Below, piece by piece: positions 60,587-63,160 of a DNA stretch of 63,160 nucleotides. The notes below the pieces were generated by a model that ran no database searches, was not told the DNA's origin, and saw nothing but the letters and a program-made list of their open reading frames with translations. Within the stretch, counting starts at the first letter, position 1. Each line of letters begins with the position of its first letter. Made by a program: the position numbers and the translations under genes. The stretch covers positions 1 to 63,160 of the forward strand of contig JAQWHD010000052.1 in NCBI GenBank assembly GCA_029237915.1, read 5' to 3'. The DNA is from Thalassotalea sp. Lineage in GTDB: Bacteria > Pseudomonadota > Gammaproteobacteria > Enterobacterales > Alteromonadaceae.

Positions 60587-61009
60587 CTATTTACCTTCAC
60601 CACATTTGCTTTCTTTAGATTTTTTACCTTCGCCACATTTGCCTTCACCGCATTTGCCTTTGGCTTTTGCTTTACCTTCGCCACATTTGCCTTCACCGCA
60701 TTTGCCTTTGGCTTTACCTTCGCCACATTTGCCTTCGCCGCATTTGCCTTTGGCTTTACCTTCGCCACACTTGCCTTCGCCGCATTTACCTTTGGCTTTA
60801 CCTTCACCACACTTGCCTTCGCCGCATTTGCCTTTGGCTTTACCTTCGCCGCATTTGCCTTTGGCTTTTTCATCGTCAAAATCTGCAGAGGTTACAACTT
60901 GTTGCGCTTCAAAAGGGTTACTTTCAGCTTTAGCTGGCATTACCGCCAATAAACCTAAAACTAATGCACTTAAAGTAACTTTTAATAAATGTTTATTTAA
61001 TAATTTCAT
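60587..61009 (-). CDS. HvfA-type cysteine-repeat RiPP/metallophore precursor (orphan)
   Basis: 140 residues from the ATG at 61009, which has AGGAAGAG just upstream. A signal peptide (LLKVTLSALVLGLLAVMPAKA) is followed by a short leader (ESNPFEAQQVVTSADFDDEK). Twelve KCGEG units then alternate with KAKG spacers to the C-terminus; every cysteine is in a KCGEG context and five read EGKCG. This resembles HvfA-type (bufferin-like) precursors whose EGKCG cysteines are converted to thioamide/oxazolone copper ligands by DUF692 and DUF2063 partner proteins (family knowledge). No such partners lie in the window, so modification here is an inference. An AATTGTTTT/AAAACAATT palindrome (61029-61046) lies in the leader. 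Confidence 0.78.
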   Translation of the reverse strand: MKLLNKHLLKVTLSALVLGLLAVMPAKAESNPFEAQQVVTSADFDDEKAKGKCGEGKAKGKCGEGKCGEGKAKGKCGEGKCGEGKAKGKCGEGKCGEGKAKGKCGEGKCGEGKAKAKGKCGEGKCGEGKKSKESKCGEGK

Positions 61010-61370
61010 AATTCTCTTCCTAAATTTTAATTGTTTTAAAACAATTTTATTAATGAACTTGCTATTACCACCAACACCCAGTCTATGGCTATCAACTAAG
61101 ACCAAGCTTGTGCCTAAATAATTTCATTAGTTCAAAAAATTAGCAAGCTTTTAACAAAAAACACACATTTAAAAAGCTTTGATCGCTTAAATGTTGCACT
61201 TTTGTTGATCATAAATAATTCAGCAACCCGGTAACCAGAATGTTTTTCAGTCAATATAACACTCCGTTAGCGCTGAAAATGAATAAACAATTTTTTAGCT
61301 TAGTAAGCTATAACGAGTAATACAAAGAGTAATTAAAATAAACTTAGATTCATAAAAATCAAAAAAAATA

Positions 61371-61546: not shown

Positions 61547-62011
61547 CAGCTATAAATTTGAGATCCAAATGACGATTTGTCAAACCAGGCGTTTTAATTA
61601 ATTTGCGACTAGAGCCCAAATATAGAGCAAGCACTTGATAACTTTAAAATATTTTTTTGTTTAATTATTTTATAACGACAAATCCACTGAATAAATATTG
61701 AATGATAAGTGAATAAGCTTGCATTTTAAAATTGTTACAAAATATTTTAAAAAGATATTTGCAAGATTTAAAATATCATTCTAAGGTTAAACTAACAACT
61801 TAACTGGGTGGTAAGGAAAAGCTACACAGACCTAGTTATAACATATGGTTTCAGAGGTTTTGTAATTTTACATTTGTTCAAAAAAGGTTAATTACAAATG
61901 AACTTAAAAATTATAGGTACATATGTTCAATTAAGTTTTAGTTTCTAAAACGATTTGAATAAAAAAACCTTAAAATGGATATTTATTAATTTTTGGAATA
62001 AAGGATTAACC

Positions 62012-62200
62012 ATGAATACAACAACAAAATTAACCTTCATCAATAGTAAAAGTACTAGAGCTGAACCTGCAAAAAAAATACCTATGCTAGGCATTTCTCT
62101 ATTAACACCAGCAAAACCAATTAAAGTAACCAGCCGATATACTTACACATTCAATTTGCCGAAAATAATACTTAGATCAAATAGGCAATCCCCTAATTAA
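62012..62200 (+). CDS. Small hypothetical protein
   Basis: 62 codons starting MNTTTKLTFINSKSTRAEPA with AAAGGA six bases before the ATG. The sequence is basic and has no clear membrane helix or motif (IPMLGISLLTP in the middle). The good ribosome-binding site is the main support; I do not recognise a family. It lies about 115 bases upstream of the CsrB-like RNA. Confidence 0.35.
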   Translation: MNTTTKLTFINSKSTRAEPAKKIPMLGISLLTPAKPIKVTSRYTYTFNLPKIILRSNRQSPN

Positions 62201-62280
62201 TGCTTGCTAGGCAAATTTAAAAGCCGCATGACATAAACTGGCAACAAACATTAAGCAATTGTTTTAATGAAACATTAGAT

Positions 62281-62310
62281 TTGCCCGATTATTCAGTCGA
62301 TATGTATGAA
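62281..62310 (+). promoter_or_regulatory. Possible promoter of the CsrB-like RNA
   Basis: TTGCCC at 62281 and TATGAA at 62305 are 18 bases apart, placing a start near 62317, right before the first GGA hairpin. I see no convincing TGTAAG/CTTACA box for a UvrY/GacA-type activator upstream. Confidence 0.35.
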
Positions 62311-62316
62311 TAATTG

Positions 62317-62580
62317 GTAGAGGTACACAAGGAGTTGTACCTAAATAGGAATACCTCAAAGGATATGAGGCGCTATGGATAGCACAAGGATGACACTGAG
62401 CTAAGGAAGGCTTATGCCGAGTCCATTAATTTACTGAGCATATTAAATTAGTGGAATTAGTATTAAAGGATACGAGTATTGAGACGTTGCTCGGAGGGCT
62501 TAAAGGTCCTAATCAGGATGATGAAGCATAACAGGTGTAAGGATGACACCTTAAAGAAGGGAGGATAAAGAGAGTTGTAC
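62317..62580 (+). ncRNA. csrB: Probable CsrB/RsmZ-like CsrA-sequestering RNA
   Basis: About 260 bases with roughly 13 GGA triplets, some three to four times the number expected by chance. Several lie in loops of perfect small stems: AGGTACA/TGTACCT with loop CAAGGAGT (62321-62342), CCTCA/TGAGG with loop AAGGATA (62354-62370), GCTA/TAGC with loop TGGA (62372-62383), and AGGTGT/ACACCT with loop AAGGATG (62533-62551). A TGAGC/GCTTA stem with AAGGA in its loop is at 62397-62414. CAGGATG occurs once. Such RNAs titrate the translational repressor CsrA. The 3' end is not defined; no classical terminator is visible. Confidence 0.68.
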
Positions 62581-62733
62581 AAATTTGAGTATTTTAAGCT
62601 TATTTTACAGGACGTAATTGAACTTAAATGTACTGATATTTGTTTCTCTTTAGAATCTTATAAAAGGAAAAATCTAGAATCAGAACCTAGGATGCTAGAA
62701 GCTAAACACGCAAACGGCAAAGGCAAAAGACAA

Positions 62734-63157
62734 GATTGCGACCTGCGTCACAATGACGCTGAACCTAACAATTCACAAGAACGCTATACGCTAAAAGCAA
62801 AAGACAAAGACAAAGACACAGACAAGATTGCGACCTGCGTCACAATGACGCTGAACCTAACACGTCACAATGAACTTTAAGGCTAATCGTTGCATCACTT
62901 ATAGATAAAATTCGTCGTCCTCGCGCATGCGGGGATCCATTTTTAACCCTGTTAGACGATGGGATTTAACTTCGTAAAAGCAAGAGCAAGATTGCGACCT
63001 GCGTCACAATGACGCGAAACCTGACACGTCGCTATACGCTAGAGGCAAAGACAAAAGCAAGATTGCGACCTACGTCACAATGACGCTGAACCTATCACCT
63101 CACATTGACGCTATACGCTAAAAACAAAAGCAGATTGCGACCTACGTCACAATGACA
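62734..63157. repeat. Five degenerate repeats with a CGTCACAATGACG palindrome
   Basis: The word GATTGCGACCTRCGTCACAA starts at 62734, 62826, 62990, 63061 and 63133. Each copy contains the palindrome CGTCA-CAA-TGACG and is followed by words like CGCTATACGCTA and by AGACAAAGACAAAG-type purine runs. The ORF that crosses part of this (62575-62880) reflects the repeat. The array continues past the end of the window. Confidence 0.88.
62912..62940. repeat. Short hairpin element CCTCGC-GCAT-GCGGGG
   Basis: TCCTCGC and GCGGGGA pair across GCAT (one G-T pair), followed by TCCATTTT. This form is a common dispersed hairpin in marine gammaproteobacteria and interrupts the repeat array here. Confidence 0.6.
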
Positions 63158-63160
63158 CTA

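Follow-up and report, generated by a model that had tools for sequence, protein, structure and literature searches.

The forward strand of the window (the whole 63,160-nt stretch analysed here, which is the entire contig C68 of G000, a draft genome of 3.22 Mb split into 71 contigs, from a genus of the marine family Colwelliaceae) presents between positions 62282 and ~62655 an array of GGA hairpins that quite probably corresponds to a non-coding, CsrB/RsmZ-like CsrA sponge of ~370 nt acting in trans. The best reading of the sequence data is a candidate sponge that is restricted to the genus and lacks a Gac box, and which would be the second, non-canonical Csr-type RNA of the G000 genome. Comparative evidence is the main support for this candidate. 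The original prediction of a CsrA-binding RNA is supported by GGA hairpins that follow the same order in the genus, by stems that change in a compensatory manner while the ANGGA they enclose is invariant, by the CsrA, BarA and UvrY proteins encoded in the genome and by weak scores of two of the 12 copies with Rfam models of the Csr/Rsm clan. The multiple GGA motifs, preferably ANGGA in hairpin loops, by which the Csr/Rsm class is recognized are present in the window RNA and in its relatives; repeated ANGGA motifs in hairpin loops are the CsrA/RsmE site, according to the excerpted text of PMC7652899. We infer that the RNA is transcribed and sequesters CsrA: its ANGGA sites number eight, the loops of hairpins H1–H4 and H8 holding five, and several CsrA dimers would bind to it, so that CsrA would be withdrawn in trans from its mRNA targets.

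The length originally claimed, ~260 nt, had to be revised. The fold of 62300–62620 barely exceeds chance (z −1.67; 6 of 100 shuffles as good), whereas inclusion of H0, an 11-bp stem without GGA located ahead of the first GGA hairpin (62285–62317; 3 of 300 shuffles as good), and of a long 3′ stem improves the z-score to −3.37 for 62282–62658, with 0 of 100 shuffles as good. The RNA was therefore placed at ~62282–62655 (+), that is ~370 nt, its ends being taken from the helices. This stretch lacks a convincing protein gene: no ORF of at least 50 aa lies inside 62282–62574, and a 101-aa ORF with a TTG start overlaps the 3′ end of the proposed RNA from 62575 onwards.

As originally noticed, GGA is strongly enriched in 62317–62580, with 13 GGA in 264 nt, eight of them ANGGA, which is the contig maximum. 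Among 3812 overlapping 264-nt intervals (both strands, step 33, mean 1.28), a single one reaches 13 GGA, the segment itself. Shuffling the segment is a harsher test than comparison with the rest of the contig, because the G richness is retained; 13 GGA were reached by 16 of 2000 base shuffles (mean 7.2) and by 8 of 500 dinucleotide shuffles (mean 8.3). At least five GGA indeed lie in hairpin loops (H1–H4, H8 and others), and the three perfect stems are as described: H1 (62321–62342; AGGTACA/TGTACCT around caaggagt), H2 (62354–62370; CCTCA/TGAGG around aaggata) and H8 (62533–62551; AGGTGT/ACACCT around aaggatg), the latter with the counterpart AAGGTG/CACCTT in the nearest named relative, Thalassomonas sp. 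M1454 (G013; NZ_VKDD01000002.1; Colwelliaceae, Alteromonadales). The stem scan and hand comparison that also cover H2 add H3 (62372–62383; GCTA/TAGC around tgga) and H4 (62397–62414; TGAGC/GCTTA around taaggaag). A further stem with a GGA loop, TTAGT/ATTAA (62448–62466), is located within an AT-rich palindromic segment of 52 nt (62412–62463) that is absent from the M1454 copy in pairwise alignment. In the fold, GGGAGGAU is followed in the 3′ domain (62560–62651) by a long stem, which AAAGAGAG/TTTCTCTTT closes and which bears an apical TTAC/GTAA hairpin around aggac (62605–62617), and by a pyrimidine-rich tail. The 3′ stem of relatives is closed by other sequences, e.g., AAGAGG/CCTCTT (by eye).

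The excess of GGA-hairpin stems in the single window sequence is modest. When the GGA positions of 62271–62660 were fixed and the other bases shuffled (n = 1000), the five observed stems of at least 5 bp with a GGA loop (mean 1.64) were reached 8 times, the seven of at least 4 bp (mean 4.42) 100 times and the two of at least 6 bp (mean 0.58) 111 times. Elsewhere in the window, 390-nt intervals (2073 in total) contain at most three GGA hairpins at a minimum stem of 4 bp.

A promoter had been predicted just before the first hairpin, but the only sigma-70-like match in 61950–62800 is located at 62142–62169, with 3.1 expected by chance. The same region has no terminator-like site on the forward strand and three on the reverse strand (0.4 expected), two of which are complements of GGA hairpins. 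The 3′ domain is possibly a weak terminator; T-runs are seen by eye in four relatives (G012, G009, G011 and G007), and the long 3′ stem of the window copy has a pyrimidine tail. Just upstream of the RNA, a 62-aa ORF (62012–62200, +) is 48% identical in M1454 and has no match in the 16 other loci scanned. The RNA that follows this ORF could be derived from its 3′-UTR, as RsmW of Pseudomonas aeruginosa appears to be.

In a blastn search against 39 genomes, M1454 gave the sole clear match (81–86% in two pieces). In the apt neighbourhoods of other genus members, the equivalent position is occupied by GGA-rich segments in the same orientation. A pattern scan of genome contigs returned 27 stretches, among which, judged by record title, the M1454 copy is the only one from Colwelliaceae. 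Most copies share the order H1, linker GGA, H2, H3, linker GGA and H4 (by eye, in a hand-made listing). Aligned with relatives, the array is kept in 12 of the 15 genus genomes and the ANGGA of H1 is invariant in 11 sequences. In these 11 sequences, unguided RNAalifold shows double changes at all eight pairs of H1; pairing is broken or interrupted by a gap in 10 of 88 cells. H1 is the only hairpin of the 5′ domain recovered by MAFFT and RNAalifold, because differing loop lengths shift the other hairpins. For this reason the profile built from the 11 sequences (R1) contains eight pairs and is otherwise mostly sequence. With E values no higher than 1.2e-10, R1 matched 12 of the 15 genomes of the genus, of which 11 had supplied its training set; the twelfth, G007 (E 1.3e-16), lies outside this set and is a close relative of the trained G011. 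No convincing R1 copy was found in G001, G002 and G003, the last being a fragmented genome (78% complete); in G002, inspection by eye shows a candidate with GGA hairpins where the RNA would be expected.

H2–H4 were compared by hand, and the pairing of each stem with its own arm (100%) is by construction, because stems were selected for pairing. Arms combined between species pair at only 52–71% of positions (55% for H1), so that differing, hand-chosen stem sequences pair in different species. Some of the 12 rows were absent or dropped in this comparison: G014 for H2, G014 and G012 for H3, and G008 and G012 for H4. Between G000 and M1454, the 97 predicted pairs divide into 55 identical ones, 8 double changes, 6 one-sided changes, 15 broken and 13 gapped pairs. 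The H0 stems of these two genomes cannot be aligned to each other. An H0-like stem is strong (at most 11 of 300 shuffles as good) in 7 of the 12 genomes and weaker in G011 (19 of 300), G007 (53), G008 (69), M1454 (76) and G012 (249), which gives a combined Fisher p of 1.1e-6 over rows that are not independent. The alignment of the 3′ region (A2) was too divergent for use and was set aside.

Beyond the genus, R1 identified no orthologue in 196 family and 394 order genomes, in searches whose filters lose weak matches. The five family matches (E 0.001) were rejected: four look canonical, because they combine a UvrY box with 19–22 GGA per 300 nt, and the fifth lies within a long open frame. The five order matches (E 1e-4) were likewise discarded (two with boxes, one GGA-rich without box and two GGA-poor), as were R1 matches on contigs C38 and C46 of G000, which look like dispersed repeats with ATGGAT hairpins.

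Rfam models do not recognize the window copy: nothing Csr-like was reported at the gathering score or at E ≤ 10, and the sole match is to U6 (E 7.7). Among the 12 copies, the CsrB model (RF00018) gave 23.3 bits in G007 and 19.7 bits in G011, below the gathering score of 71, and the RsmZ model (RF00166) gave 27.5 bits in G011, below that of 44. Neither of the two Csr-type RNAs of G000 (on C68 and C54) was reported by Rfam. A blastn search of plasmids returned no match. Elsewhere in the order, one genome has five consecutive CsrB copies, all of them above the Rfam cut-off (G030:C1:4533806–4536939). Tandem short hairpins with GGA loops, e.g., GTGCAGGGATGCAC and CTGCATGGATGCAG, were also observed at ~1400–1850 in G012:C14 (L125) and G009:C1 (L126); these are possibly CsrA-binding repeat arrays.

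The components of a Csr system are encoded in G000. CsrA is present at C2:795–950 (87.1 bits, over the cut-off, with an ORF), and contig C8 has another, partial match that likewise exceeds the cut-off (46.3 bits). Models NF007018 (PRK09483; 385.6 bits on C24, cut-off 280) and NF008318 (PRK11107; 998.8 bits on C18, cut-off 890) detect proteins that we take to be UvrY and BarA, respectively. The UvrY/GacA box was searched as TGTRAGN6CTYACA in the 1200 nt upstream of the window-type RNA, and with at most one mismatch it was found in 0 of 12 genomes, as opposed to what a Gac-activated RNA would show; sites with two mismatches occur at −541 in G000, at −531 and −425 in M1454 and at −1179 in G006. 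Since this box is missing, BarA-UvrY is probably not what drives transcription of the window RNA. Gac-independent members of the Csr/Rsm class are known, so that the missing box argues against BarA-UvrY control and not against a sponge. For instance, Yersinia CsrC is activated by PhoQ/PhoP, as cited in the excerpted text of PMC4950607.

Weak R1 matches in G004, G006 and G010 led, via a conserved neighbour protein, to a second GGA-hairpin RNA, located in G000 on C54 (L167) at ~766–1210. Its first GGA lies 193 nt downstream of a perfect box, TGTGAGATATCTCTTACA, and a T-run terminator (by eye) comes after the RNA. In all seven second-type loci examined, the box is located 189–194 nt ahead of the GGA array (exact in four, one mismatch in three), if a lone GGA ~26 nt past the box in G004, G006 and G010 is left out of the array. 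Among the ten best loci of the neighbour protein, seven have an adjoining GGA-rich stretch (8–14 per 300 nt) and three have none (G011, G008 and G001). The C54 RNA thus shares with the window RNA its GGA hairpins and its genome, and differs by its perfect UvrY box, its T-run terminator and its locus.

The neighbourhood of the window-type RNA is conserved as well. Upstream of the RNA, near the end of C68, are located dnaX, apt (PF00156), a lone response-regulator receiver (PF00072) and a KCGEGK-repeat protein; the names dnaX, apt and galU are our presumed assignments from the protein sequences. The KCGEGK-repeat protein (60587–61030, −), a small protein ending in many such repeats, is matched at 10 of the 14 apt loci taken from the rest of the genus and has no match in a Pfam search; it presumably resembles metal-binding peptides of the HvfA/bufferin type. 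In 8 of the 12 genomes (M1454, G012, G009, G005, G014, G006, G004 and G010), both apt and galU are inside the fetched 11–13 kb. G008 has apt and no galU in its 11 kb. The RNA is beside galU in G011 and G007, the apt region being elsewhere in G007 and the apt contig of G011 ending early. In G000, a contig break separates the RNA from galU, which is the first gene of contig C63 and is preceded by the same repeats that follow the RNA. These REP-like repeats, GATTGCGACCTGCGTCACAATGACGC and CGTCGTCCTCGCGCATGCGGGGATCC, flank the break on both sides (window 62700–63160 and C63 1–450, L195).

Downstream of the RNA, on the same strand, a transposase gene is present in 10 of the 12 RNA loci, with a partial one in G002 (L204–L211, L213, L215 and L216). 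The three that were tested all belong to Y1_Tnp (PF01797), and we take this protein to be a REP-associated tyrosine transposase (RAYT). Among 15 such genes in the genus, the 11 at the RNA locus have 9–13 GGA per 300 nt upstream and the four elsewhere 3–6. Because the transposase gene follows 10 of 12 RNAs and is GGA-rich upstream at this locus only, a serious rival is a 5′ leader under CsrA control: the array would act in cis on the transposase gene and survive as a remnant after gene loss in G000 and M1454; no strong terminator was seen between the RNA and the transposase gene, in line with such a leader. We nevertheless consider it unlikely. M1454 has kept the RNA, but a search of that genome at E 1e-10 revealed no such gene, and the RNA is followed there by galU, encoded on the opposite strand; the only transposase copy found in G000 is located on contig C50, which lacks the RNA, the gap between C68 and C63 being unsequenced. 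Moreover, the copies of G000 and M1454 are among the GGA-richest (15 and 14 GGA, with 15 in G006) and their H1–H4 are still paired.

A structured RNA with GGA loops for a ligand other than CsrA, either a different protein or ribosome binding, seems very unlikely to us. CsrA binding of the window RNA is a prediction, and such a reading would fit with the lack of an Rfam match for the window copy and with the missing UvrY box, but repeated ANGGA hairpin loops are the CsrA/RsmE site (PMC7652899, excerpted text) and two of the 12 copies score, albeit weakly, with the Csr/Rsm clan. Finally, the GGA counts exceed composition-preserving shuffles only moderately, stems of at least 4 bp are unexceptional and REP-like repeats come next, yet chance GGA- and palindrome-rich intergenic DNA producing no RNA is hardly credible, given the place, order and covariation conserved within the genus.

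The proposed sponge can be compared with several known systems. It resembles CsrB/RsmB (RF00018) in its size range of 300–400 nt, its many GGA hairpin loops and a genome with CsrA, BarA and UvrY, but differs in having no Rfam match, no upstream UvrY box and no strong terminator. With RsmZ/PrrB (RF00166) it shares the GGA hairpin array, but that model has 133 positions, compared to ~370 nt here, and the GacA box is missing. For rsmY and rsmZ, the GacA site TGTAAG-N6-CTTACA is located 75 and 196 bp upstream, respectively (PMC4950607, excerpted text). RsmW of P. aeruginosa offers a parallel by description: this Rsm RNA is not activated by GacA, its only GacA site, a weak one, lies 830 bp upstream, and it follows a small ORF; RsmW appears to be 3′-UTR derived, and the likeness is one of description and not of sequence (PMC4950607, excerpted text). 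Pf1–Pf3 of Pseudoalteromonas fuliginea are likewise Csr RNAs of marine Alteromonadales, with 25, 21 and 9 GGA, but promoters have been tested, and terminators predicted, for Pf2 and Pf3, in a comparison by description only (PMC11882849, excerpted text). According to the same excerpt, Thalassotalea sp. LPB0316 has a partial match to Pf3, possibly but not necessarily the window RNA (PMC11882849). Among the titles listed on Csr RNAs in Colwelliaceae or Alteromonadales, on Csr-RNA predictors and on RAYT, only the P. fuliginea papers came close (PMC11882849, PMC9927453). The window RNA would thus be a new, unannotated member of the Csr type, unusual in the absence of a Gac box. Earlier genome-wide predictions of Csr RNAs could include relatives of it.

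The presence of a REP-type transposase gene in the conserved neighbourhood of the RNA is an oddity that can be tested. A sponge outside BarA-UvrY control could be genetically tied to the resident REP-type transposase, CsrA titration and transposase expression sharing a transcript or a signal; we regard this as rather unlikely. If true, the tie would give the Csr network a second input and connect Csr regulation to REP elements. If the proposed sponge itself is real, these bacteria would possess at least two CsrA antagonists, one behind a UvrY box and one without, and this pair of RNAs would allow one to ask how a second signal enters a Csr network, as happens with RsmW in P. aeruginosa.
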